Assembly (NCBI GenBank): GCA_021792045.1
Contig: JAJYVJ010000028.1
Location: 1 to 16,082, forward strand
Length of the DNA: 16,082 nt
Direction: 5' to 3'
Origin: Thermoplasmata archaeon
GTDB taxonomy: Archaea > Thermoplasmatota > Thermoplasmata > Thermoplasmatales > Thermoplasmataceae
The notes below the pieces were generated by a model that saw nothing but the letters and a program-made list of their open reading frames with translations, was not told where the DNA came from and did not search any database. Positions 3,117-15,896 of the stretch are shown piece by piece; within the stretch, counting starts at the first letter, position 1; every line of letters begins with the position of its first letter. Both the position numbers and the translations under genes were made by a program.

Positions 3117-4148
3117 ATGATTCAAAATGAAAATCAGTATCGAGAAGTTATAGCAAGCACTCTCAGTAAACTTGACGAACTCAAAAAAACCCCAAGGCCT
3201 TCTGATGTTAAACTTAGATATATCTATAGAATAAAAGACTCGGGCGATCCTGGCGATAAAACGAAGTATTACACTGAAAGAATAGAAATTGCAGATAAAA
3301 CTAAGGTAGAAGTATTAGAACGCCTTATAGAAGATTTTGAAAAAAAGAGAGAAGAAAATATTAGTGTCCATCTAAACTATAACTTAAATTACCCGATAAC
3401 AAGAGGGGCAGTTGGAATTTTAAATGAGGAATCCTACCCAGAGGAATTAAAGAGCCTCGTTGAAGAACTTTCATCGCAGCCTTCTTCTGATCCGAAAAGA
3501 CGTAGTGTGAAGAAAAGCAATAGAAAGTTAGATATTCCTATAGCTTATTCGATTGAATTTAACGGCATATATTATATTAAGACTATTGAGAAGATAAAAA
3601 TTGCCTCAGGAAAAAAGCTGGAGAAATCTCTGATCTTTGGAACAAAGTCTCAAAGAATAGTAAACATAGATCAAGACCTACTTGTAATAGTTTTAACTGA
3701 ACCAGATCTTGTTATATACTCAAAAGAAAACGAAGAAGACCCGGCATTTGTATATAGTTCTCATAAACTAGGGACTATTTGCGCAACTTATGAATATATG
3801 AGAAGAAAAATACGAGAAAGTAAAGGTGAGTTAGATAAGGTACTAGACGATTCAACCTCTCTTTTGACTTATCTCGATAAGGAATGGAATACTGTTCATA
3901 CCTTCTATTTTGCTCTAAAAAGGGGTGACCTTAGTATTTTAGATAATAATTATATTGATATTCTCAGGAATAAATTCTTGGGAAACCGAATCCAAAAGGA
4001 TAGTGGAGGTAAACTTATCACTCAACACCTATCCGGAAAGGATATATATTGTATATTGACATGTAAGTATGGAACACTTGTGAATCGAAAAGGCGAAGAG
4101 GAAAAAGGGATAGTCGAGAGTTTCAACAGAATTCAGTCAAATGTTTAA
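3117..4148 (+). CDS. KwaB-like (DUF4868-like) defence protein candidate, 343 aa
   Basis: This soluble, Lys/Glu-rich protein has no signal peptide and no membrane segment. The N-terminal 80 residues are charged and alpha/beta; residues 115-140 form a low-complexity basic linker. The middle block IAYSIEFNGIYYIKTIEKIK (about 142-161) followed by FGTKSQRIVNIDQDLLVIVL (174-193), then 'TEPDLVIYS', resembles the DUF4868 pattern in which a 'Y.i.....yyik' strand leads to '.f..I.d.ii.i...iDlvI'. DUF4868 is the domain of KwaB in the two-gene Kiwa anti-phage system. The assignment comes from pattern memory, not a search. The strongest support is the neighbour: its stop overlaps the stop of a convergent membrane-protein gene resembling KwaA. 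Normally kwaA and kwaB lie in the same direction, so this arrangement is unusual. Confidence 0.4.
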   Translation: MIQNENQYREVIASTLSKLDELKKTPRPSDVKLRYIYRIKDSGDPGDKTKYYTERIEIADKTKVEVLERLIEDFEKKREENISVHLNYNLNYPITRGAVGILNEESYPEELKSLVEELSSQPSSDPKRRSVKKSNRKLDIPIAYSIEFNGIYYIKTIEKIKIASGKKLEKSLIFGTKSQRIVNIDQDLLVIVLTEPDLVIYSKENEEDPAFVYSSHKLGTICATYEYMRRKIRESKGELDKVLDDSTSLLTYLDKEWNTVHTFYFALKRGDLSILDNNYIDILRNKFLGNRIQKDSGGKLITQHLSGKDIYCILTCKYGTLVNRKGEEEKGIVESFNRIQSNV

Positions 4149-4681
4149 CTCGTTTCATAATCATATACAACATTAAGATAATATAATAATTCGTGAATTC
4201 TCGATACCTTTAATTCTTCTCCCATTTTTGGTCTCCTTTTAGATATTAGATAAATTTGTGCCCCTTTTTCGGTTTTAATCTCCATCTCCTTGTAGCCAAA
4301 TAATACTAGAAAAGGGTTAAACAGCATAATTTTTGCTTCGTTAGACAGAGTATATATTATTAGCATAATAATAGCAAGAACCAGAAGCCCCTTAACTGGT
4401 TGTAGGAAAAGAACGGAAGGTAGAGCTATGGAATATGATAAATAATATGCAATCACATCGTTTCCTATGTTTTTGGTGTCTGAAATTTTATAAGATTCTT
4501 TGTCACAATTTTTAAGGTTTTTTTCACTAAAAATCTGCCGCCATATTATGTTACAAAAGGCACTTAAGAAGACGGGAATTAACCAAACACTAAGGGCATA
4601 TCCGATATAGACAATGTATGTTATAAAAAAAATAGGAGAAAAATTGCCAATAAATGCTAAAAATGTTTGATAGCCCTTCAT
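4145..4681 (-). CDS. four-helix membrane protein, KwaA-like candidate, 178 aa
   Basis: Four hydrophobic segments are visible at about residues 7-29, 31-47, 76-94 and 97-113, with a polar, Lys-rich loop between the second and third. They are followed by FNPFLVLFGY (121-130) and a soluble tail reading 'KEMEIKTEKGAQIYLISKRR'. The sequence 'NP.l.LfGY....t..g...yLiSkr' is, as I recall it, shared by small membrane proteins of the KwaA type, which have four membrane helices. In Kiwa, KwaA senses phage attack at the membrane and works with KwaB. ATG at 4681 follows an AAAGGTAAG Shine-Dalgarno sequence. The gene is convergent with the KwaB-like gene and their stop codons share three bases. The Kiwa link is an inference; the membrane topology is well supported. 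Confidence 0.45.
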   Translation of the reverse strand: MKGYQTFLAFIGNFSPIFFITYIVYIGYALSVWLIPVFLSAFCNIIWRQIFSEKNLKNCDKESYKISDTKNIGNDVIAYYLSYSIALPSVLFLQPVKGLLVLAIIMLIIYTLSNEAKIMLFNPFLVLFGYKEMEIKTEKGAQIYLISKRRPKMGEELKVSRIHELLYYLNVVYDYETS

Positions 4682-5095: not shown

Positions 5096-6577
5096 TTGGT
5101 AATAAGATGTTATGACATTGATCTGGCTCGTACCTACTTGATAAATTCTCTCGAGTCTGAACTTCCAATAGATGATTTTGGTCGGTATGTTCTAGATAAT
5201 AAGATTGAAAATGTATTCAGATATAAACCAACCATAGAATTCTTAAATGAAAGAAGAGTTTCGCTTAAATTCAAGGAGAGCATATTATTTGTCTGTTTTC
5301 ATAATCAAAACTTGTTCTGGACAGATTCCTGGGGATATACAGACATAAACGACTTTTTGGAAAGCTACGATAATCAAATATTTTTTGCAATCTACGAATC
5401 AAAAGAAAAGTATAAAGATCAGGTAAACTGGGAAGATTCTGTTGGCCAAATATACGAAGAGGTAAAGGCTCATAATTACACCTCCAAAGAAGAGTTAGAA
5501 GATTCTGTCAAATTTTTTATTGGTAATCTCGTAGACGCTTCCGTCTATAGGAATATCATACAATACGTAAAGGAGCATCGTTTTAGAAGAATAGATGAAC
5601 TGATAACATCTGTATCAGGAGGATTTGCAAATCTTGAAGACTACGTTGAAGCTAAGGAATCCAGGATACCAAATATTCAGACTTTGCAATCCTATAGGTT
5701 GGTTGAGGAACTTACTAATTATTTTGATTTTAAAAATTGGACCGAAGCATTATTGTTCGCTGTCCTATTAAAATTAAAAAAAGAAGAGGATGAAGAGACT
5801 GAATCCGAAAGGATGATGGTGGATTTAGACAAGATTTTCTACAAACTTCGAAACTACCTACCTAAAAATAACAATACTAAGTTCCCAAAAATAGCGAAGA
5901 AGGAAGACTTGGAAGATATTTTCCTAAAGAGATCCGCTTTTTCTTGGATAGGTTTCTATAGCCCTGCAAATAAGTCTTTTGAGTATTCACCAATGAAATT
6001 GTACATAGACGGCAGCAATATAGTTCACAATGGACGAAAGAGGGGTGAAATAAACAAGAACCTCGTTCGACCTGTCGTAAGTTACTTGGGTGATTGTATT
6101 AGTTGTCTGGAAAAAATTGGTATTTCACCCGCAGGAATTTACATTGATGCTCGCACAAACTGGTCTATTAATAAAGGCAATGAAGTTGAAAAAAAAGAAT
6201 ACAAAGAGTTCAAGTTTCGATACAATACAAAGCTAACATTATACAACGAAAAAGCTGATGAGAGATTAATTCAAAAATTAAAGGATGATCCAAACTGCTT
6301 TGTTATCTCAAACGATTCTTTTGACGAATACAATCTCAATGATGCAGAAAAAGGAAGATTAATATCGTTCGAACGCACTGAATCTGGGTACGTTTTCAGG
6401 AATTCGAATGGGAATTTAATCAATGATCTCATAGATTCTAAAAATAATGATTTCGAACAATACGTGAAAATAATGCCGTTGAACAACTTAGATAATTGGC
6501 CTTATCCGGAAAAATATGACTCCTTAGCAATTGACAGTTTTATTCAAACATTCAAGCCAAATACTGATGCGAAATGA
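5096..6577 (+). CDS. NYN/PIN-domain ribonuclease fused to a large N-terminal domain, 493 aa
   Basis: From residue 300 the protein carries an NYN/PIN-type nuclease domain of the Zc3h12a (Regnase) kind: MKLYIDGSNIVHNG (D305, N308), a central helix and strand (ISPAGIYIDAR), ADERLIQKLKDDPNCFVISN (D388, D407) and SFDEY (D410). Acidic residues at these positions bind the catalytic metal in the family, so the active site looks intact and an RNA substrate is likely. The first 299 residues are mostly helical and charged and match nothing I recognise. They could be a sensor or targeting domain. The only in-frame start before the conserved body is TTG 5096, since a stop lies at 5072; an A/T element 20-30 bases upstream suggests a short leader. 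The gene stands alone between the Kiwa-like pair and the large operon, fitting a defence effector. Confidence 0.7.
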   Translation: MVIRCYDIDLARTYLINSLESELPIDDFGRYVLDNKIENVFRYKPTIEFLNERRVSLKFKESILFVCFHNQNLFWTDSWGYTDINDFLESYDNQIFFAIYESKEKYKDQVNWEDSVGQIYEEVKAHNYTSKEELEDSVKFFIGNLVDASVYRNIIQYVKEHRFRRIDELITSVSGGFANLEDYVEAKESRIPNIQTLQSYRLVEELTNYFDFKNWTEALLFAVLLKLKKEEDEETESERMMVDLDKIFYKLRNYLPKNNNTKFPKIAKKEDLEDIFLKRSAFSWIGFYSPANKSFEYSPMKLYIDGSNIVHNGRKRGEINKNLVRPVVSYLGDCISCLEKIGISPAGIYIDARTNWSINKGNEVEKKEYKEFKFRYNTKLTLYNEKADERLIQKLKDDPNCFVISNDSFDEYNLNDAEKGRLISFERTESGYVFRNSNGNLINDLIDSKNNDFEQYVKIMPLNNLDNWPYPEKYDSLAIDSFIQTFKPNTDAK

Positions 6578-7434: not shown

Positions 7435-7608
7435 ATGATTATCATTACTTGTGAAAAACATCCAACGGAATCGCAGGACATACCTTATCCGGCTAATAGT
7501 GGAAAATTCATATTCATTCATGACGAGGATGTTCAGATCTGCACTCTCCTTTGTCGCAAAGGTGTAGAGTGCAAGGGTCAAAACATATGTTACCGTTATG
7601 TGGAATAA
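7435..7608 (+). CDS. possible small Cys-containing protein, 57 aa
   Basis: ATG at 7435 opens a frame reading MIITCEKHPTESQDIPYPA, then a basic/hydrophobic middle and a C-terminus with CTLLCRKGVECKGQNIC. Five cysteines and two histidines in so short a protein suggest a metal-binding or disulfide fold. An A/T element (GTTTAATTTT, 7401-7410) lies about 30 bases upstream, giving a near-leaderless start; ATG 7426 is an alternative. The minus strand is also open here, so this could be chance. Codon choice looks ordinary for the window. No family is recognised. Confidence 0.35.
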   Translation: MIIITCEKHPTESQDIPYPANSGKFIFIHDEDVQICTLLCRKGVECKGQNICYRYVE

Positions 7609-7681
7609 CCTTGTGAGAGATAGATTTCTTGAAAGGGCTGAGTAAGATATGAAAATTTCCAAACAAAAATGCAGGTAACAA

Positions 7682-7787
7682 TTCAGTGATGCAAAGAGTA
7701 TTTCACTGAAATTCCATCACTCATCATGAATTTTCTCGTGAAATACCAGATGGGAATTAAAAATAGAGGATTTCCGGAAATTCTCTA
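7682..7787. repeat. cluster of inverted repeats just beyond the six-gene operon
   Basis: Three perfect or near-perfect inverted repeats crowd into 106 bases: TTCAGTGA (7682-7689) with TCACTGAA (7703-7710); GTATTTCAC (7698-7706) with GTGAAATAC (7738-7746); and a 24-base near-palindrome at 7764-7787 centred on ATTTCCGGAAAT, with 11 of 12 positions paired. The last lies 26 bases past the end of the operon's final gene and may act as a terminator or boundary. The first two share bases, so they are alternative structures. Confidence 0.5.
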
Positions 7788-7812
7788 ATTTCATTACAGA
7801 GATAATAAGATA

Positions 7813-8676
7813 TCATCTTTCGTTTTCCCTTTCGGCTGTCCTCTCCCTAATCCTCTCGGCCAGATGATCTACCATCTCTGAAAATTCCTTAGTCAAGTTT
7901 GTCCGAGTATCTTCATCCGGATCAGGGATTGTTTCAAATATGCTTTTTGACTGAAAATCCATGCCTATTAGTTGAGAAAACGCCTTTGTTTGACTTTTAT
8001 AGGTGAGGCCTTTCATCGCCCTTAAGATCTCTTCTGTAGTTAGATGATGGCTATCTGTCTTTGAGTCCATAGCTCTCTCGACAGCACCAGCTATCAGTCT
8101 TATGGGAAAAAATCCTTTCCGGGGGAAATTCTTTTCATCACCATTTATCCATGAGGTGACATCGTCTCTTACCAATATCAACATGGAGAATAACAACAAA
8201 GAATTGAAATAATTGGAAAAGCCATTTCCCTCTAATCCGAAATTGGTTAAGACGTGAGTAGAAATTGACACCTTATTCATAGGCACGATCAGAAAGTCAT
8301 CGTGGGAAGAGTCATATTCAATGGAGATCAAATCGTTTTGTGCTAACGTCTTTACTATCTTTTTTATTTTTAATGGTTCTGCATTCTCTATGTCCTGTCT
8401 GAATATTTTTTCGTCTGAACCGATGGATAAGTATACCATAGCTACCTCCTGCACCAAGTTTTTCACGCTTACATAACGATTGTAGACTGACAAGTTAGAG
8501 ACAAAATAGGGTAGATTGTTGGAGTAGTAATCTGGCAGTCTCTCTGAATCTGCAGAGGAAAGGTATCTCCGGAGATCTTCGATGAACAACTCCATAGCCT
8601 CAATCCCTATCGAGCAATGGGGACATATTGACCCTGAAACATCAAAGTTTGTAAGCCGGCATATCTTACAAATCAT
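7813..8676 (-). CDS. zinc-ribbon protein, last gene of the operon, 287 aa
   Basis: The N-terminus has a zinc ribbon (C3, C6, C18, C21; CKIC and CPHC). The rest is helical, with a segment reading KIKKIVKTLAQNDLISIEYD that looks like a winged-helix recognition and wing region, a hydrophobic helix (about NSLLLFSMLILV), and a charged helical tail (AERIRERTAERENER). No catalytic motif is seen. The layout parallels gene 11918-12772, which has the same zinc ribbon, a similar size, an equivalent 'ILKELSDASIINWES' segment and a similar tail, so the two are probably distant paralogues, perhaps partners in one complex. The ATG overlaps the stop of the SMC-like gene (ATGA), with GGTGGGG as ribosome binding site. 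A role in DNA binding or complex assembly is an inference. Confidence 0.55.
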   Translation of the reverse strand: MICKICRLTNFDVSGSICPHCSIGIEAMELFIEDLRRYLSSADSERLPDYYSNNLPYFVSNLSVYNRYVSVKNLVQEVAMVYLSIGSDEKIFRQDIENAEPLKIKKIVKTLAQNDLISIEYDSSHDDFLIVPMNKVSISTHVLTNFGLEGNGFSNYFNSLLLFSMLILVRDDVTSWINGDEKNFPRKGFFPIRLIAGAVERAMDSKTDSHHLTTEEILRAMKGLTYKSQTKAFSQLIGMDFQSKSIFETIPDPDEDTRTNLTKEFSEMVDHLAERIRERTAERENER

Positions 8677-10580
8677 GTCAACCCCACCGTAGGGTGACTG
8701 ACCCCCTCCTTCACCACAGTCATTATAATTGCTTTGTTGTTTCTCTTTCCAAATTCATCAGCGTATAAAAGTATTCTTTTTCGTCTTTCTTCATCGAAGA
8801 ACTCATAAATTCCATCGCAGAGTATTATAGGTATTTCTGGAGAATAACCTTGTGCAAGCGCTAACTGCAATGTTAGAGCGATAGTCGCTTGTTCTGATCT
8901 GCTAAGATTTTGTGTCTCAAGTATTTCAAAACTATCTACAGTTTTCTTCCTAGCGAGAATGTTAAAATTATTATCCACATAAATATCAAGGTCGAAAGAC
9001 ATTTCTTTCAATATTTTCTTTATATTCTTGTTAAACTCGTCCTTAAGCTTTGTTTGCTCCGATTCTTTTAGTTTTTGAAAATGGTCTTCTATGTCTGATA
9101 ATGAGTTCATTACACCTTTGTCAAAAATATCAATAGTTTTTGTTTCTACAGGATAATTTGTTCCGAATATGTTTATTTGTGAATATTTTTTACCCATTTC
9201 CAAATCTTTTATATCGGTTTCAAAAATTTTTATCTGGCTCTGGAGTGATTTGAGTCTTTCTGAATAGTCTCTGTTGCCAGCAGAAATAGCTAGCTGGAGG
9301 TTATCCCTCTGCCTACTTAATTCTGACTTTTTGATTTCTTCTGACTGTAGCTGGGTTAAAGCGTAATCTAAGTCCCGTTGGTAATTTCTTAAGTCATCTT
9401 TATTCCTGAGGATATTTTGTTCTAACCCAGAAATACTCTGAGATAGCTCTTTTTTCCTCTTTAGTATTTCATTCAAATCACCTGCCTTTCTTGAAAGCAA
9501 TGAGATTTGAGAGTCAAATCCCCTTATTGCCTCATCTTTCTCATTAGCTATTCTCTCAACCTCGGCTGGGTTTATTTTGTTGGAACCACAAAGCGGACAA
9601 ACTACTTCCCCAGAATGCTCCTTTTCAAGCATTGAGTGAGTACGCTTAAGAATATCATAAAGAATTTGCTCCTTAGATCTCTTATCCTTTAGAGAGTTGA
9701 TCTTTGCCTCGATCTCTGGAATCGAGTCTATGTCCGCCTTTTCATACTCTTCAACGGTTTCCCTGGATTCTCTGAGCTTCTGCTCCAATTGCTTAATCTG
9801 CTCATTTGTCTGCTCAATTCTGCCATTATAATTCCTAATCTGTTTTTCATATTCTACTATTATATTGTTTGATTTATTAATTAATTTCTCCATTTCTTTT
9901 ATTTGACTGTTTATCTCTGATATCCGCTCTTCCCTATTTGGGTCATTTTTTGCCTCTTCACTGATTTTCTCTTGTATGGCCTTTAGTTCTTGTTTAGCTT
10001 CTTCTAGTAATTTTCGTTTTTCTTTAATCTTTTTTTGAGAATCAGCGGATTCTTTAATCATTCTGTTGAGCTCCTGAATTTTTTGAAACAAATCTTTTTT
10101 AGTTTCTGTGACGCCGTCTATAACGTCCTCGTATCTCGTGATCATATTATTGAAGTCATTAAGATAATCACTTACTTTCACGGATGTCGTATGAGTTAAA
10201 ATACGCATTATCCAACTTACATCACTCAATACATTCGTTATTACAAACCTAGGATTAGAGCCCTTGAACTTTCCATTTCTTGAAATGAGCGCTGATTCAT
10301 TGATCAGGTTGCCACTTATGTTTATTCGGGCTTCATCAAGGCCTACAGTGATCAACCCGAAGTTGCCTTTACTACCATCCTGAAGTATGCCAAGCAGCTT
10401 CTGTTCTTCTGAGATTCTGGTATCCTTATTGGAAGCATCATATGAGATAGCTGCAGCAATTGCTCTAATTATCGAGGATTTCCCAACTGCGTTATCCCCG
10501 TATATCAAAGCAAGTCCAGCATCGGGAAATTCAAAAGACGAATCATTAATTGTTTGGACTCCTTCTATATGCAATTTCAC
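8673..10580 (-). CDS. Rad50/SMC-like ATPase with CPLC zinc hook, 635 aa
   Basis: The order of parts is N-terminal ATPase half with Walker A GDNAVGKSS (residues 28-36), a long coiled coil (about 150-320), a zinc hook CPLC (328-331) near the middle, the returning coiled coil (about 340-460), and the C-terminal ATPase half with ABC signature LSRSEQ (559-564) and Walker B IPIILCDG (to G590). Rad50-type proteins dimerise at the hook and clamp DNA. This one is short: archaeal Rad50 is much longer, and no Mre11 gene is nearby. Walker B reads CDGIYEFFDEE rather than DE, with the nearest glutamate at 593. The GTG start at 10580 follows GGGGGC. It resembles the class that includes DndD, PtuA and other defence ATPases, with no specific match. 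Confidence 0.85.
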   Translation of the reverse strand: MKLHIEGVQTINDSSFEFPDAGLALIYGDNAVGKSSIIRAIAAAISYDASNKDTRISEEQKLLGILQDGSKGNFGLITVGLDEARINISGNLINESALISRNGKFKGSNPRFVITNVLSDVSWIMRILTHTTSVKVSDYLNDFNNMITRYEDVIDGVTETKKDLFQKIQELNRMIKESADSQKKIKEKRKLLEEAKQELKAIQEKISEEAKNDPNREERISEINSQIKEMEKLINKSNNIIVEYEKQIRNYNGRIEQTNEQIKQLEQKLRESRETVEEYEKADIDSIPEIEAKINSLKDKRSKEQILYDILKRTHSMLEKEHSGEVVCPLCGSNKINPAEVERIANEKDEAIRGFDSQISLLSRKAGDLNEILKRKKELSQSISGLEQNILRNKDDLRNYQRDLDYALTQLQSEEIKKSELSRQRDNLQLAISAGNRDYSERLKSLQSQIKIFETDIKDLEMGKKYSQINIFGTNYPVETKTIDIFDKGVMNSLSDIEDHFQKLKESEQTKLKDEFNKNIKKILKEMSFDLDIYVDNNFNILARKKTVDSFEILETQNLSRSEQATIALTLQLALAQGYSPEIPIILCDGIYEFFDEERRKRILLYADEFGKRNNKAIIMTVVKEGVSHPTVGLT

Positions 10581-10592
10581 TGAAATCGCCCC

Positions 10593-10742
10593 CTAATACT
10601 CATCCCTTACCACCTTAGCTACATCAGAAACAATGATGTTTTTAATGTCATCCTGACTAATTCCGCTTTTATTTATCCTCTTCTCCAATGAACTTATGCA
10701 GTTCTGAGAAATCTTTTTTCTTATAACTTGGGTATCTGTCAT
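10593..10742 (-). CDS. 49-residue protein of the operon, unknown
   Basis: ATG at 10742 overlaps the stop of the upstream gene (ATGA) and follows a clear Shine-Dalgarno sequence (GGAGGG) seven bases ahead, so this start is preferred over the upstream in-frame one that would give 63 residues. The peptide MTDTQVIRKKISQNCISSLE continues as two predicted helices ending 'VSDVAKVVRDEY'. It has no recognisable family. Its position between the 149-residue protein and the SMC-like ATPase, with tight spacing on both sides, argues that it is a translated small subunit or adaptor of the same complex. Confidence 0.6.
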   Translation of the reverse strand: MTDTQVIRKKISQNCISSLEKRINKSGISQDDIKNIIVSDVAKVVRDEY

Positions 10743-11188
10743 AGTATTTCCCTCCTCAGATAAATCCTGTAATAACTGAACCAAGAGCGTTTTTCTTCCT
10801 TCGACTTTTCCTTCTCGTTCTCCAATACCTGCTTGAGTTGTATGATGACATTTTCATCCAGACCAGACACATCATATATTTCGAGCCCACCTCTGGCTTT
10901 CCCAGCTCCAGATCTCCTGCTGCCTGCATCAAGTTCGACTTCTATACTAATTGGGATGTGCCTAAGTAGCGCATAATCTTTGGGAAATATTGTTAGCGCA
11001 TCAGCATTCCCTTCAAGATTCTCTTTTAATTTATTAATAAGAGGCGGAAATTCTCCCCTTCCCATGTGCAAAAATCTCCTACAATCATTTGCACAGCTGT
11101 CTTTGTATTCCTTAAAGTAAATCTCAATTTCCAATTGCCCAGAATAGGGAAATCTTATTCCTTCTGGAGTTCCATTATCAGTTTCCAT
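10739..11188 (-). CDS. 149-residue protein of the operon, unknown family
   Basis: The start ATG shares a base with the TGA of the AAA+ gene (TGATG), and its stop overlaps the next start by four bases. The N-terminal half is strand-rich (QLEIEIYFKEYK) and includes CANDCRRFLHMGRG; the middle has 'IPISIEVELDAGSRRSGAGKARGG', a Gly/Arg-rich loop; the C-terminus is a charged helix followed by an aromatic tail. I see no nuclease, methylase or DNA-binding motif that I trust. The two cysteines four residues apart (CANDC) could bind metal with other ligands, but this is weak. Translational coupling on both sides suggests a stoichiometric subunit. Confidence 0.65.
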   Translation of the reverse strand: METDNGTPEGIRFPYSGQLEIEIYFKEYKDSCANDCRRFLHMGRGEFPPLINKLKENLEGNADALTIFPKDYALLRHIPISIEVELDAGSRRSGAGKARGGLEIYDVSGLDENVIIQLKQVLENEKEKSKEEKRSWFSYYRIYLRREIL

Positions 11189-11898
11189 CAGTTCTCACCT
11201 ACCATTTCCACCACTTCTAGCAGTGTCTCATGCTCAATATCTCTCAATGACTTAATTTTTCCTTGGTCGATCTTTGATTTTAAAGACTTTAATATCTGCT
11301 CTGTGTTCACCTCAAAAGTCTCTCCTCCCAGTGATTTCTCGGCGAACTCTTTCAGTTGTTCCTTGCTCAAGGCAGGGATTGAAATTGGGTACAGTCTTGA
11401 AATCAATGCAGGGTCCACCATTTCTGGCTTATTCGTTGTCGCTATCACAAGAGTGTTAGAGTGATCAATATCGTCTAGCAAGTGAAAAGCAACTGAGTTA
11501 ATAGAAAAGTGCCACTCTTTAGCAATTTCAATATCTCTGCTCATTAGGGTGCTTTCGATGTCATCAAAAATTATTATTCTCTTCTCAATTTGCTTGCCGT
11601 CTGAGTTCGCAATAAAAGCTTTCTTCAACTTTTCTTCTGCGTCTCCCCATTTTGGTGAAGCAATGTCTGATCCATCAAGCAGGAAGATCTTTACTGGTGT
11701 GCCCTTACCTATTAAAAGTGCAGCCTGTTTTGCAATTTCTGTCTTTCCGTTTCCTGGAGGACCTGAAAGCAAGAAGCCTGAAAACTTCAAGCTAACATCA
11801 TTTTTGAATACGTAGTCTGCAATTTTATAAATTCTCTTTGCAATTTCGCTCTGATACCCAAGCAATTTCGTTGCCTTTATTCTTGTACTTATTTCCAT
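11188..11898 (-). CDS. AAA+ ATPase, 236 aa
   Basis: This single-domain AAA+ protein has Walker A GPPGNGKT (residues 46-53), Walker B RIIIFDD (107-113), sensor 1 ATTN (153-156) and an arginine-finger candidate in ALISRL (R168). The last 60 residues form the small helical lid. Walker B has Asp (D113) where the catalytic Glu normally sits, so hydrolysis may be slow; E115 could compensate. The family call is AAA+ of the classic clade (FtsH/katanin/spastin-like fold), not a helicase. ATG at 11898 follows AAAGGAGGA and lies 19 bases after the upstream stop. The next gene starts on its own stop codon. In the operon it probably remodels or loads partner proteins on DNA. Confidence 0.88.
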   Translation of the reverse strand: MEISTRIKATKLLGYQSEIAKRIYKIADYVFKNDVSLKFSGFLLSGPPGNGKTEIAKQAALLIGKGTPVKIFLLDGSDIASPKWGDAEEKLKKAFIANSDGKQIEKRIIIFDDIESTLMSRDIEIAKEWHFSINSVAFHLLDDIDHSNTLVIATTNKPEMVDPALISRLYPISIPALSKEQLKEFAEKSLGGETFEVNTEQILKSLKSKIDQGKIKSLRDIEHETLLEVVEMVGEN

Positions 11899-11917
11899 TA
11901 ACCATATCCTCCTTTAT

Positions 11918-12772
11918 CTATCTCGTCCTAATATTCTCCCTTAATCTTTGGAGATATTGAACTATGTCTGGAGATATAACGTAAACCTTGTCGTCGTTGC
12001 CATTATCTTCAACATCGATTGTAGCCTTTTGCGCATAGTCTGTACTAAGGGAGCTGAGATTGGTTATTATCGTCCCATAGACATTACCTGTCCCCCTTCT
12101 TTTCTTCAGAAATTTGTTTGTTCTTTCAAGAGAAATCTTACCATCGCTGTTCCCTACTAGGATTGACAGCATGATGATCCATGGTTTTTTTGGAACCAGG
12201 TTCAATTTTTTGACCTCCTCTCTTGAGTCACAATGGGAATAGTTTCGAATTAAAGGGAGTAGCGAATAAAATCCCATAATGTGACCATATCTCTGTTCCG
12301 CTCGATCAGTTACCGATGAGCGTTTGTAAGATTCTTTCAGGTTCTTGATCACATCGCCAGAATAAATTTTTGGCGAATTACCGCTGTTAAGCGATGAAGA
12401 TTCCCAATTTATAATGGAAGCATCAGATAGTTCTTTTAAGATTTTCAATTGATTAAGTCTGGTCTGTACCTTCTTCGTGAATTGCTCCAGTGTTGTCTCA
12501 TTGTTGCCTTTATCTATGAATTGATCCAGGAAGAATTTCATTGAGTTCTTATATGTCCGAAGCAACGAATCTTCCTGCACGATGAATGCAAATTCTCTTA
12601 GCATCTTGAATACAGACTCCCTATCAACGGAGGGATTGTATGATAACTCTTTCTTTGCGTCTTCAAATAAAACGTCTATGAGATCCTTCAATTCTTCGCA
12701 TTCAGTACATTTCTGACCCCCGTCGGTAACTTTTCTCCCACAGAGAATACAGTTTATGTTCATTGATATCAT
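11918..12772 (-). CDS. zinc-ribbon protein, first gene of the operon, 284 aa
   Basis: The N-terminus has a zinc ribbon (C8, C11, C22, C25; CILC and CTEC). The body is helical, with no catalytic motif. 'LKILKELSDASIINWESSSL' resembles a winged-helix recognition and wing segment, and 'YGHIMGFYSLLPLIRNY' forms a helix like that of the paralogous gene at 7813-8676. The tail is basic (RLRENIRTR). An A/T-rich block (12781-12804) gives the promoter; ATG 12763 would be about 25 bases from the TATA centre and is a reasonable alternative to ATG 12772. The gene leads the six-gene operon and is divergent from the PP-loop enzyme gene, so both may share control. A DNA-binding or scaffold role is inferred from the zinc ribbon and winged-helix-like segment. 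Confidence 0.55.
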   Translation of the reverse strand: MISMNINCILCGRKVTDGGQKCTECEELKDLIDVLFEDAKKELSYNPSVDRESVFKMLREFAFIVQEDSLLRTYKNSMKFFLDQFIDKGNNETTLEQFTKKVQTRLNQLKILKELSDASIINWESSSLNSGNSPKIYSGDVIKNLKESYKRSSVTDRAEQRYGHIMGFYSLLPLIRNYSHCDSREEVKKLNLVPKKPWIIMLSILVGNSDGKISLERTNKFLKKRRGTGNVYGTIITNLSSLSTDYAQKATIDVEDNGNDDKVYVISPDIVQYLQRLRENIRTR

Positions 12773-12897
12773 GATGTTAGTATATTATAATATTAATATA
12801 TTATCTAATGCAGTAACAATGCAATCATTAAACCACTTAACTTTTATCCTTGCTACAAGGAAATATAGATATAACATTATAGATTGCAGGTGTGATT
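12773..12897. promoter_or_regulatory. divergent promoter region between the operon and the PP-loop gene
   Basis: The gap of 125 bases contains 24 consecutive A/T bases (12781-12804) close to the operon start, serving as TATA element for the minus strand, and an AAATATAGATATAA block (12861-12874) about 25-35 bases before ATG 12898 for the plus strand. AGGTG at 12888-12892 could be the ribosome binding site of the PP-loop gene. Expression of both units is therefore probably co-regulated. Confidence 0.5.
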
Positions 12898-13635
12898 ATG
12901 AGTTTGGAAGAAGACAAGAAAGGGTGGGCACTCCTTTCTGGCGGAAAAGATAGCACGCTAGCTGCAGTCGAAATGAGTATAAAAAACAAGTTGGAAGGCG
13001 TGATATACATTGATACTGGTATAGGGCTGAATGAGACAAAAGAGTATGTCGAAGAGATTTCCTCTAAGTTTGGCTGGGACCTGAAAGTTTTTAAAGGATA
13101 TACTAGTTATGACTCTTATGTTTTAAAGCACGGATTTCCCACTCCAAGTGGACATAGTCAGATAATGCATATTCTGAAACTAGATGCAGTCAGGAGGTTC
13201 ATATCTTGGCATAAAAGAGAGATTGGCGTTGCTCCTCTTCTCTTTTCTGGCGTAAGAAGATCTGAGAGTAGCAGACGGTCACAATGGGCTAGGAGAGTTC
13301 AGTTTTATCAGGGAGCATACTGGGACTGCCCAATATTTCACTATGATGACAATAAGGTATGGGAATTGCATTATGAACAAAAAATTCCTATAAATAGTGC
13401 GTACGGGACAATTGGAAAGAGTGGAGATTGCTTATGCGGTGCATTTGGTAATTTAACCGAAAAAAAAATAATTGAAAAGTATTATCCTTATCTATCAGAT
13501 CATATCAGCCATTTGGAAGAGAATACTAAATCAGAGAAGTATGGTATATGGGGAAACACTGATAAACCCATATGTGCACTCAAAGGAAAAGGCCAATCTG
13601 AGCATCTTCTTTGCAGCGAATGTTCCATTAAGTAA
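12898..13635 (+). CDS. PAPS-reductase-like PP-loop enzyme with Cys-rich C-terminus, 245 aa
   Basis: The N-terminal PP-loop is SGGKDST (residues 14-20), followed by 'IDTGIGLNET' (38-47), GVRRSES (118-124) and 'DCPIFHYDDNKVWEL' (143-157), the sequence of motifs in phosphoadenosine-phosphosulfate reductase (CysH)-type enzymes and in DndC. The family activates a substrate by adenylation or reduces activated sulfur. The C-terminus has SGDCLCG (C178, C180), C226 and CSEC (C239, C242), a five-cysteine set that could hold an iron-sulfur cluster. Assimilatory CysH usually carries its cysteines as a different pattern. ATG 12898 with AGGTG upstream is preferred to GTG 12892. It faces the six-gene operon and no sulfate assimilation genes are nearby, so I think it serves that operon in nucleic-acid modification rather than cysteine synthesis. 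Confidence 0.82.
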   Translation: MSLEEDKKGWALLSGGKDSTLAAVEMSIKNKLEGVIYIDTGIGLNETKEYVEEISSKFGWDLKVFKGYTSYDSYVLKHGFPTPSGHSQIMHILKLDAVRRFISWHKREIGVAPLLFSGVRRSESSRRSQWARRVQFYQGAYWDCPIFHYDDNKVWELHYEQKIPINSAYGTIGKSGDCLCGAFGNLTEKKIIEKYYPYLSDHISHLEENTKSEKYGIWGNTDKPICALKGKGQSEHLLCSECSIK

Positions 13636-13660
13636 TAACTAAAATTGCGTCTTAAAGCTT

Positions 13661-13720
13661 TTGCACCTAAAAGATTAAAGTTGCACCTAAATCCCATTGA
13701 AAATGCCCGTTTAAGTGCAA
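13661..13720. repeat. TTGCACCTAAA repeats, two direct and one inverted
   Basis: TTGCACCTAAA occurs at 13661-13671 and, exactly 20 bases later, at 13681-13691. TTTAAGTGCAA at 13710-13720 is its reverse complement with one change. They sit just after the PP-loop gene and before the IS110 element. A 20-base spacing would put sites on nearly the same face of the helix, so a protein-binding array is possible. Confidence 0.45.
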
Positions 13721-13798: not shown

Positions 13799-14950
13799 CT
13801 ATGAAAAAAGTTGATCTGTCTTATGCTGATCTCTCTTCTTCATAAATATTTTTTCCACCTCTTCAAGATCTTTGAGTCTTCCTGGATTTTTTGCCCTCAT
13901 TGACATGGCCTTCATCTTTCTCTCAGTGAGAGAATCAATGTTATCCTCGAACTCAATATTCTTTGTGAGCATTACATATATGCACTCCAAGAGGATCCTT
14001 GCAATTGCAACTATTGCACGGTTCTTTCCAAGTCTTCTTACAAGGCCAAGATACTTTGCCTTCATCCTCTTTGAATATCTTATGGTTACATGGGCAGCAG
14101 TCACAAGTATGAATCTCAGCATGGATGAGCCATGCTTTGTTATGTGCCCTTTGATGTCACGATTGCCGGATTGATCCTGCCTTGGCACCAGGCCGGCATA
14201 AGCTGCAAGTTTCTCCTTTGTTGGAAATCTGGTCACATCATCTATCTCTGATAATATGGCAGATGCTGAATACACATTTATACCCGGAATTGTCATTAGC
14301 AACCTCACGTAAGTATTTCCCTCACAAGCTACAGCCATCTGATCCTCAATGATTCTCTCTCTTTCTTTAAGATCAGATATCCTTTCTATGAGATCTGAGA
14401 GAACAATTCTATCCATGGCAGGGAGCTTTGAGGATTCATCCATAATGGATCTTATGCCTCTCCTTCCAAATATGTCTGTTGCATGTATGATGATTCCATG
14501 CCTTGTCAGTATTGCATGAACCCTATTCTTCAACATGTTCATCTCTTCGCCAATGGATTTCCTGTACCTTACTATCGATCTGAGAGCATCTGAGAACCTT
14601 GAGGGAAGATGTACTTCTGGCAATTCATTGAGTCTCAGAAGCTTTGCAAGCTTGTATGAATCCTCCTTATCGTTCTTCTTTGCTGTCATGAATATTAGCG
14701 AAAGCTTTGATGGATCTGCCAGATGCACTGAGAAACCCATGTCCCTTAGCTTTCTTGCAATATATTTTCCCGATGTTGATACCTCAAGTGCAATCTCAGG
14801 CCTCAGATCCAGGTATCTGGATCTGAATGCATTCAATGCACTCTCTGTGTTTTCGATCTCATAGCTTTCACAAACATTTCCTTCTTCATTCATTGTTGTA
14901 ACATATACGCTACTTTTATGTACATCCAATCCAATATAGATTCCAACCAC
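13799..14950 (-). CDS. IS110-family transposase (DEDD recombinase), 383 aa
   Basis: The N-terminal RuvC-like domain shows IYIGLDVHKSSVYV (D9), IALEVSTSG (E56) and KKNDKEDS (D94, D97), the DEDD set of the family. A coiled region follows, and the C-terminal Tnp_20 domain reads 'TIPGINVYSASAILSEI', 'RFPTKEKLAAYAGLVP' and QDQSGN (S261, the probable serine nucleophile). Together these domains cut and join DNA guided by a bridge RNA. GTG 14950 directly abuts the Shine-Dalgarno sequence AAGGAG, which is too close; a normal spacing would put the start at ATC 14941, giving 'IYIGLDVHK', the usual family N-terminus. The frame is complete, so the element may be functional. Confidence 0.92.
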   Translation of the reverse strand: MVGIYIGLDVHKSSVYVTTMNEEGNVCESYEIENTESALNAFRSRYLDLRPEIALEVSTSGKYIARKLRDMGFSVHLADPSKLSLIFMTAKKNDKEDSYKLAKLLRLNELPEVHLPSRFSDALRSIVRYRKSIGEEMNMLKNRVHAILTRHGIIIHATDIFGRRGIRSIMDESSKLPAMDRIVLSDLIERISDLKERERIIEDQMAVACEGNTYVRLLMTIPGINVYSASAILSEIDDVTRFPTKEKLAAYAGLVPRQDQSGNRDIKGHITKHGSSMLRFILVTAAHVTIRYSKRMKAKYLGLVRRLGKNRAIVAIARILLECIYVMLTKNIEFEDNIDSLTERKMKAMSMRAKNPGRLKDLEEVEKIFMKKRDQHKTDQLFS

Positions 14951-15181: not shown

Positions 15182-15394
15182 CTATTCTAGTTGCAATTGA
15201 ATTTGCTTATTAACTAAATTTTTTGGAAAACGCAAAATTGGACACATAAATGCGAAGTGAACGCATAAAATGCTTAAACAGATCCTGCCCCAAATCAGCT
15301 TACTCTCAAGTAACTCAGAAATCAGAAAAATTTAAGTGCATAATATAACAAACCATGTATAATAACATAAATTGTCATATACAAAATATTGATA
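15182..15394. other. intergenic A/T-rich sequence, no gene seen
   Basis: This lies between the IS110 end and the degraded antitoxin copy. No frame, tRNA or IS end stands out. CATATA-type A/T blocks at about 15368-15381 could be the former antitoxin promoter; they do not match the promoter region of the first copy. Confidence 0.4.
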
Positions 15395-15705
15395 ACAAAT
15401 AGTGCCTAAATCAGAAATCACTACGATCCAGTTGGAGAGATCGGTTCTGGAAGCACTTAAAAGAGTCAAGAGCTATCCGCGAGAGACCTATAATGAAACA
15501 ATTCTTAATCTCATAAAAAATACAGAGGAAACAAGAGAGTTGGGAACTTTGGCGCAAAAGGCCCAGGAAAAGAAAATGAAACAGCTTTAGGAAGGAGGAG
15601 ATTACTCAGGATGGGAACATGCCTGAACCAGGTGACGTAGTAATTACAATGGTTAAATTCACTAATAATAACAAGACACCCCGCCAAGTGAAATTGCAGC
15701 AATGA
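15395..15705 (+). pseudogene. second, degraded copy of the antitoxin/PemK-like toxin module
   Basis: Bases 15395-15663 match 2448-2716 at a constant offset of 12,947. The antitoxin copy (GTG 15402) differs from the first at about 16 of 225 bases. One change turns TGG into TAG at codon 63, so the product ends at KMKQL (62 aa); reading through would restore the same C-terminal tail. The toxin copy starts at 15619, reads MPEPGDVVITMVKFT and diverges after about 15 codons, stopping at 15705 (28 aa). Similarity starts about seven bases before the antitoxin start and ends inside the toxin, so promoter and toxin body are not shared. Both copies face the same way and bracket the whole island. Confidence 0.8.
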
Positions 15706-15821
15706 AGATAATATTGCTAAGAGTTGCGGAATTAAATACAATATTCTCGCACAGGGTCTTAAAAGGGTATTATAAACGCAGTGATCAGATCAAAGACATA
15801 TTCAGGAAAAGGTATACTTAA
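15702..15821 (+). pseudogene. short open frame of 39 aa, probably a gene remnant
   Basis: ATG at 15702 overlaps the end of the toxin remnant and reads MKIILLRVAELNTIFSHRVL, then a basic tail. It is basic and helical, resembling the fragment of a larger protein such as a transposase, but I cannot name it. It follows the break point of the module copy, so it may be what was joined there by a deletion. It could also be a chance frame. Confidence 0.2.
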
Positions 15822-15896
15822 GATTATGCAAAATTCTGGACACTACGACTGTATTGAATGCATCACATTAATAGGAAGTTATGATATTGAAATAGC

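Follow-up and report, generated by a model that had tools for sequence, protein, structure and literature searches.

What is the tight cluster of seven genes carried by a 16,082-nucleotide contig of a Thermoplasmata archaeon (JAJYVJ010000028.1; this whole stretch is hereafter the window), and is it, as an initial annotation proposed, a relative of the Dnd system of DNA phosphorothioation? The cluster encodes two zinc-ribbon proteins (znA and znB), an SMC-like ATPase, two small proteins (p49 and p149), a single-domain AAA+ ATPase and a PP-loop enzyme of the PAPS-reductase type. We found that it is a conserved mobile cassette lying at unrelated genomic places, and that its SMC-like protein, judged from its sequence, is an archaea-specific SMC-related protein (ASRP) and not DndD. 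The initial annotation held in part: the genes form one unit, are linked elsewhere, make up a set for which we found no name and include a PP-loop enzyme that is not CysH, whereas the kinship to Dnd was not borne out. The explanation that we favour, at a probability of about 0.5, is a mobile complex, built around ASRP, that would scan DNA and guide modification by the PP-loop enzyme, most likely for defence.

The cassette recurs in other genomes. A wide profile scan of genome contigs, for which ASRP was the only query, matched two named genomes, E-plasma (genome G001, locus L001) and Thermoplasmata archaeon HSP1.bin27 (L002), and both carry all seven genes in the order and orientation seen in the window. 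Local protein identity to the window is 90–97% in E-plasma and 48–78% in HSP1.bin27, where the small open reading frame (ORF) is lowest; full-length identity is 62–97% for the five proteins aligned. Such recurrence of the seven-gene set is far beyond chance, and the opposite outcome, genes unlinked elsewhere, did not turn up. The genes also appear to be under selection to keep their proteins, with ratios of non-synonymous to synonymous rates (dN/dS) between the window and E-plasma of 0.090 (znA), 0.146 (ASRP), 0.131 (p149), 0.120 (AAA+), 0.207 (znB) and 0.134 (PP-loop); the value for p49 (0.303) is weak, coming from only three synonymous and four non-synonymous changes. Between the window and HSP1.bin27, synonymous sites are saturated in six of the seven genes and dN is 0.14–0.32. 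A protein collection yielded at least 15 ASRP proteins (E ≤ 0.001), 37 p149 proteins (E ≤ 0.001) and 24 znB proteins, the last two counts including the cluster of the window; the znB count omits 11 of 35 matches (P0077–P0087), relatives of a query row of the type found in genome G310, because that row shares only position and no similarity with znB. The longest contig of 10 of the 15 ASRP clusters is equal in size to that of some cluster of p149 or znB, a sign that more linked copies may exist.

The surroundings of the cassette differ between copies. The unit is 93.6% identical to the E-plasma locus at the nucleotide level over 6,176 alignment columns, nothing else in that locus matches the window at E ≤ 1e-3, and the flanks of the two are unrelated. 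In E-plasma the unit separates a GCV_T gene from an MFS transporter gene. Three other genomes of the same genus were searched, two of which (G551 and G296) have GCV_T beside the MFS gene without the cassette: the flanks abut in G551 (the left ends at 3937, the right begins at 3936) and are 27 bases apart in G296, and the third genome (G260), with the transporter and no GCV_T match in the stretch examined, is uninformative. Given the abutting flanks in G551, the E-plasma cassette is a 6,151-base insertion, which we infer to be a gain rather than the product of two losses; the different flanks of the window copy support this. Presence and absence at one site, together with unrelated flanks, point to gains and losses of the kind seen in defence or mobile genes.

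All seven ORFs are present in the window with the overlaps and motifs first described for them (Table 1). They are packed into positions 7813–13635, six on the minus strand facing the PP-loop gene on the plus strand; in plus-strand order the six are znA, ASRP, p49, p149, AAA+ and znB, so that znB is transcribed first. Gene ends overlap by four bases (znA/ASRP and p49/p149) or one base (p149/AAA+), and the remaining gaps are 12 and 19 bases, an arrangement compatible with one operon. A start at ATG 12898, which gives the 125-base gap before the PP-loop gene, is likelier than the alternative GTG 12892 because the codon corresponding to the latter in HSP1.bin27 is neither ATG, GTG nor TTG. Motifs include the Walker A of ASRP (GDNAVGKS) and its zinc hook (CPLC, residues 328–331), and GPPGNGKT in the AAA+ protein. 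Counterparts of p49 have 48 amino acids (aa) in E-plasma and 49 aa in HSP1.bin27 (from TTG at the same codon), and a 43-aa ORF occupies the equivalent position in the divergent locus L046 described below. The inserted unit extends about 300 bases past znA (7510–7812), a stretch also conserved in E-plasma; no gene was recognised there, and the one overlapping ORF (85 aa) has no Pfam match. Neither Rfam nor a tRNA scan gave any match in the window.

Table 1. Features of the cassette in the window (L001 and L002 are the E-plasma and HSP1.bin27 loci).
Feature	Position	Strand	Description
Whole mobile unit	7510–13679		93.6% nucleotide match to L001 13070–6897; 6,151-base insertion in L001 (6912–13062)
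znA	7813–8676	-	287 aa; N-terminal zinc ribbon (CxxC...CxxC); basic C-terminal helix
znA body			winged-helix-like by eye only
SMC-like ATPase (ASRP)	8673–10580	-	635 aa; start GTG, in L002 TTG
p49	10593–10742	-	49 aa from ATG 10742; helical by eye
p149	10739–11188	-	149 aa; family without known domain
Single-domain AAA+ ATPase	11188–11898	-	236 aa; classic AAA, CDC48-like domain
znB	11918–12772	-	284 aa; four-Cys zinc-ribbon motif and two winged-helix domains (~63–165, ~192–284; model)
Divergent intergenic gap, putative promoter	12773–12897		125 bases
PP-loop enzyme (PAPS_reduct, PF01507), phage/plasmid type	12898–13635	+	245 aa

The SMC-like protein had been annotated as a zinc-hook SMC ATPase and set beside DndD. 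The zinc hook and Walker A stand, whereas kinship to DndD is not supported. The protein has Walker A at the N terminus, a CxxC zinc hook at the apex of the coiled coil, and the signature and Walker B at the C terminus, and it scores 279.3 bits against the NCBIfam ASRP model NF045487, just under the cut-off of 300; the E-plasma copy scores 302.8. The DndD model TIGR03185 is absent among the 25 NCBIfam families matched by the window ASRP at E ≤ 1, and DndD exceeds its cut-off in none of the four genomes with a whole or partial cassette. Weak DndD matches occur in genome G013, one at another locus (2.9e-7) and one to the N-terminal half of the cassette ASRP (1.6e-4; 20.3 bits against a cut-off of 245.85). 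The window protein also matches PbeC of PADLOC weakly (3.9e-7). ASRPs were reported in 2022, with an original function described as uncertain (PMC9389158).

The PP-loop enzyme carries the motifs SGGKDS, SGDCLCG and a C-terminal CSEC. In a tree it groups with PAPS-reductase-like proteins of phages and plasmids and separates from the rows tested for CysH and DndC; the phage and plasmid rows were partly chosen by similarity to the query, so that this grouping is partly expected and the separation from CysH and DndC is the informative part. Both the tree and the C-terminal motif thus set the enzyme apart from assimilatory CysH, and its score against the CysH model TIGR00434 is 35 bits (cut-off 165.1). 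Escherichia coli CysH pairs instead with a separate E-plasma gene (G001:C3); the two share the C-terminal ECG[LI]H, in contrast to CSEC in the cassette enzyme. As to DndC, the model TIGR03183 is over its cut-off in 3 of 292 genomes of the phylum, neither E-plasma nor G310 among them, and the G013 cassette enzyme reaches 28.9 bits (cut-off 290.4). PADLOC matches of the window enzyme are BrxP (6.3e-11), SspD (4.7e-10), QueC (8.9e-5) and DndC (0.0095). Its relatives comprise 19 phage and 7 plasmid records, and in HFTV1 the relative lies two genes from a DNA methyltransferase. Among 11 phage and plasmid ‘PAPS reductases’ that we compared (L064–L070 and L078–L081), SG[DE]CxC is present in all and a C-terminal CxxC in nine, and all lack the ECGLH end of CysH; perhaps, as these motifs hint, such proteins are not sulfate assimilation enzymes.

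Beyond the close copies, the cassette is rare. Among 389 genomes of the phylum, the ASRP model matched 68 at E ≤ 1e-20 and exceeded its cut-off in one, E-plasma. Many of the 68 matches are 700 or 1,200 aa long, lengths expected of Rad50 or SMC, and the one in G248 was set aside as Rad50-like, lying beside a Mre11-like gene (by eye, from sequence). Thirty matched places were scanned for cassette proteins with about 1.5 kb of flank (not every weak match was opened), and by the contexts so examined the cassette is whole or partial in 3 of the 389 genomes (E-plasma, G013 and G310). A sample of 300 genomes of the class gave ten matches to the ASRP alignment at E ≤ 0.001, convincing only in E-plasma and G013, and the znB of G013 was found in none of 12 other genomes of its order.

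G013 carries a divergent version, split over two contigs (L046 6847–9815 and L045 2–3079) that we join because each half of ASRP runs up to the end of its contig. Its order is znB, AAA+, p149-like, the 43-aa ORF, ASRP and znA-like, followed downstream on the same strand by the PP-loop gene, which thus lies at the end opposite to that in the window and is not divergent. Profiles of the close family only, run against 6,059 ORFs from 86 loci, matched its AAA+ protein (1.4e-48), the two ASRP halves (4.1e-22 and 2.0e-18), znB (3.1e-16) and the p149-like protein (1.0e-4; next unrelated ORF, 1.3), and the PP-loop protein was matched by tblastn at 3.5e-16. Identity is 22–26% for ASRP and znB and 26% for the PP-loop. 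The PP-loop subfamily differs, being of the phage type in the window clade and of the BrxP/PRK13795 type in G013, where a PP-loop–ferredoxin protein matches BrxP strongly (1.4e-53, residues 20–352) and archaeal PRK13795 models too. Tentatively, we propose at least one exchange of the PP-loop module, and this exchange is our main reason for thinking the enzyme functionally part of the cassette: G013 keeps the six-gene core order yet pairs it with another PP-loop subfamily, as if the activity itself were wanted.

Two further candidates were rejected as full variants. G310 shares only AAA+ (8.8e-27) and ASRP (292.1 bits); its 270-aa and 120-aa neighbours match by position, without similarity in an independent profile test, and the region stops at a contig end where a PP-loop partner would be checked. 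The nearest AAA+ matches on plasmids, with about 30% identity, belong to different, haloarchaeal operons, and none of the four such regions opened has a gene annotated as ASRP or PP-loop; in two of these plasmids (L051 and L052) the AAA+ gene adjoins a series of hypothetical genes.

The remaining subunits are unlike known families: znA, znB, p149 and p49 matched none, and znA had no family over its cut-off in Pfam, NCBIfam, PADLOC or PHROGs. The predicted model of znB has two winged helices (predicted local distance difference test score, 85). MAGE-A11 and chains of Nse1, Nse3 and Nse4 appear in its fold lists at E values of 0.2 and more, none significant (root mean square deviation 10.7 for an Nse chain), viral predicted structures gave no significant match, and a place for znB in the KITE family found no significant fold match. 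Similarity between znA and znB is weak and depends on the rows used (hhalign probability, 59% against 2.9%); the G013 znA-like protein gives 65% against the znB profile and has a tblastn match (0.003) to the znB of the window.

It is well established that coiled-coil ATPases of the SMC and ABC types grip DNA and travel along it, that winged-helix subunits attach to SMC heads and to DNA, that complexes are remodelled by AAA+ rings, and that a PP-loop enzyme first adenylates its substrate, which sulfur or nitrogen then attacks. On the reading that we favour, ASRP dimers held by the zinc hook, with two zinc-ribbon subunits of which at least one has tandem winged helices, would load on or scan double-stranded DNA; the AAA+ ATPase would assemble or remodel this complex, and p149 and p49 may be further subunits of it. 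The PP-loop enzyme, through ATP-driven adenylation and possibly sulfur transfer by its CxC and CxxC cysteines, would modify the nucleic acid selected by the ASRP complex, and the cassette as a whole would serve genome defence by marking self or damaging invaders. An ASRP core with an exchangeable PP-loop module would follow the same logic as the Dnd core. We propose defence because of the patchy distribution, the presence and absence at one site and the defence-gene neighbours, which we recognised near two of the four loci with flanks examined. In G013, genes for a CD-NTase (7.5e-85) and NucC (4.9e-96), a pair of the type found in cyclic-oligonucleotide-based anti-phage signalling systems (CBASS), lie about 4 kb upstream of the cassette (L046 1366–2900); in the window, a 178-aa protein (4145–4681, minus strand) matches KwaA of Kiwa (PADLOC, 7.1e-13; NCBIfam, 34.1 bits against a cut-off of 100).

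Several observations weigh against this reading. No defence family was found in the ten proteins flanking the E-plasma cassette (Pfam), which are metabolic enzymes, a transporter and a KaiC-type ATPase among others, and no clear defence gene flanks the HSP1.bin27 copy (five proteins searched in Pfam, two in PADLOC), where matches are to a transposase, metabolic families and, weakly, a restriction enzyme (0.0055). No nuclease, methylase or cysteine desulfurase was recognised in the seven cassette proteins. ASRP and the AAA+ protein both lack the usual catalytic glutamate, the Walker B of the latter being FDD, not DE. The znB model has no significant Foldseek match (best E, 0.16), and the znA-like protein of G013 has a profile E of 4.1, its assignment depending on place, a zinc ribbon and an hhalign probability of 33.5%. 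That the PP-loop genes are of two types and sit at opposite ends may also mean that their adjacency is incidental. Within the ASRP family, moreover, the reported roles are in chromosome compartments for ClsN (coalescin) and in cell shape for Sph (PMC9389158, PMC10869688).

These family roles, and ASRP membership itself, invite an explanation that we consider unlikely: a chromosome-organising, repair or cell-shape complex like ClsN or Sph/RdfA that spread laterally and has no part in defence. A Methanohalobium plasmid (pMETEV01; L090 7525–10690) carries ASRP, RdfA and a 161-aa ORF in a row, which is the haloarchaeal ASRP–RdfA pairing in a methanogen and fits such a role. Its RdfA has zinc-ribbon-like cysteines by eye, yet the one RdfA sequence tested showed no detectable similarity to znA, znB or p149, nor did one Haloarcula ASRP neighbour resemble the zinc-ribbon proteins. 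Patchy presence, with presence and absence at one site within a genus, is ill-suited to housekeeping, and a complex of this kind offers no obvious place for the PP-loop gene.

That gene is itself the subject of a second explanation, also unlikely in our view, in which the six-gene operon acts alone and the PP-loop enzyme is a fellow traveller in sulfur metabolism or regulation. Its position on the opposite strand in the window, E-plasma and HSP1.bin27, and the other end and other subfamily in G013, would suit this. The gene is nevertheless kept at all three close loci and lies inside the inserted unit in E-plasma, a genome that has the distinct CysH-like gene described above.

Quite unlikely is a module that a mobile element carries as cargo or uses for its own maintenance (partition, exclusion of competitors or anti-defence) rather than host defence. 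The insertion is precise, an IS110 element (window 13799–14950) lies about 120 bases from the unit, a DDE transposase adjoins the cassette in HSP1.bin27, and PP-loop relatives occur on plasmids and viruses; against this, no transposase, integrase or replication gene was recognised inside the unit (Pfam, NCBIfam, PADLOC), no relatives of ASRP or znB were found among viral contigs, and the window ASRP has no plasmid relative at E ≤ 1e-5. A G013 ASRP half matches the Methanohalobium plasmid ASRP at 4e-5.

A divergent phosphorothioation system of the Dnd, Ssp, Pbe or BREX-4 (bacteriophage exclusion) kind, suggested by the DndC–DndD-like pairing of PP-loop and SMC-like proteins and by the matches to BrxP, SspD, QueC, DndC and PbeC, is very improbable, as ASRP is not DndD, the PP-loop lies outside the DndC rows, and the ten window proteins tested gave no match to DndA, DndB, SspB/C or PglZ (Pfam, NCBIfam, PADLOC) and no PbeA, PbeB or PbeD partner (PADLOC).

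The wider neighbourhood in the window holds further features. The convergent neighbour of the KwaA-like gene (3117–4148, plus strand) encodes 343 aa, presumably about the size of KwaB; it matched neither KwaB nor another defence family, and no KwaB partner was found. A 493-aa protein (5096–6577, plus strand) has a short sub-cut-off match to DUF4194, which is JetB/MukE-like (Pfam, 9.8e-4), and a C-terminal part that we take, from a motif seen by eye, to be NYN-RNase-like. A 276-base direct repeat, 93% identical, flanks the cassette (2444–2719 and 15391–15666); its copies overlap ORFs with sub-cut-off VapB-antitoxin matches, and the first runs into a PemK/MazF-like ORF (2672–2872; 0.0034). A 75-base stretch (15771–15845) is 73% identical to one beside the DDE transposase of HSP1.bin27 (L002 7304–7378) and may mark where an insertion element common to both ends.

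If the reading that we favour is true, an SMC-anchored system would be added to archaeal immunity, which to our knowledge is thinly known outside haloarchaea and Sulfolobales. We advance only tentatively the fuller claim of a new archaeal immune class, a 6-kb mobile cassette in which an ASRP complex with zinc-ribbon winged-helix subunits and an AAA+ loader would scan DNA and direct an undescribed PP-loop modification by sulfur or adenylyl chemistry. Through the cassette one ASRP branch gains fixed partners, mobility and a candidate enzymatic output, which makes the role of ASRPs testable, and the cassette ties phage ‘PAPS reductase’ genes, listed in PHROGs as auxiliary metabolic genes, to a DNA-machine context. 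That the set is not a known named system, as first supposed, agrees with searches of Pfam, NCBIfam, PADLOC 2.0 and PHROGs; no description was found in the literature searched, with a prior mention in the ABC ATPase survey of Krishnan et al. 2020 possible.

Comparison with known systems places the cassette among several machines. SMC–KITE complexes include Smc5/6 with Nse1–Nse3, and Wadjet and Muk. Like them, the cassette has an SMC-like ATPase with a tandem winged-helix protein (in the znB model); unlike them, znB has a zinc ribbon in front, and no kleisin or JetD-type nuclease was recognised in the cassette. With the ASRP family (ClsN/coalescin and Sph) it shares the zinc hook, the LSxSE signature and the NF045487 match, and it differs in its fixed seven-gene neighbourhood, whereas the report on the family found no apparent consensus in the genes flanking ASRPs (PMC9389158). 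We cite three precedents for its presumed logic. Type-4 BREX has BrxP (PMC12839542), whose model the G013 PP-loop–ferredoxin protein matches, whereas the window enzyme matches it weakly and no PglZ or other BREX gene was found in the flanking proteins tested. Type IV-B CRISPR has CasCysH (PMC8175902), likewise a CysH-like PP-loop protein (SGGxDS) tied to a nucleic-acid-binding machine, its mechanism undescribed; here the likeness is by description and not by sequence, and no Cas proteins were recognised at the cassette. The DndD–DndE core, which scans DNA, occurs with phosphorothioation genes or instead with cytosine methylases (PMC10853773), and both DndC–DndD–DndE and CxC/PbeABCD join a coiled-coil ABC ATPase to a PAPS-reductase-type PP-loop enzyme in one locus, as the cassette does. 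The cassette differs in that its ATPase is ASRP, its PP-loop enzyme belongs to another clade, its four other small and zinc-ribbon proteins match no known family, and DndA, DndB and DndE are not recognised, the last among seven proteins searched with PADLOC, Pfam and NCBIfam, where p49 and p149 may be too divergent. The cassette is thus related to Dnd-type systems in logic, not by membership.

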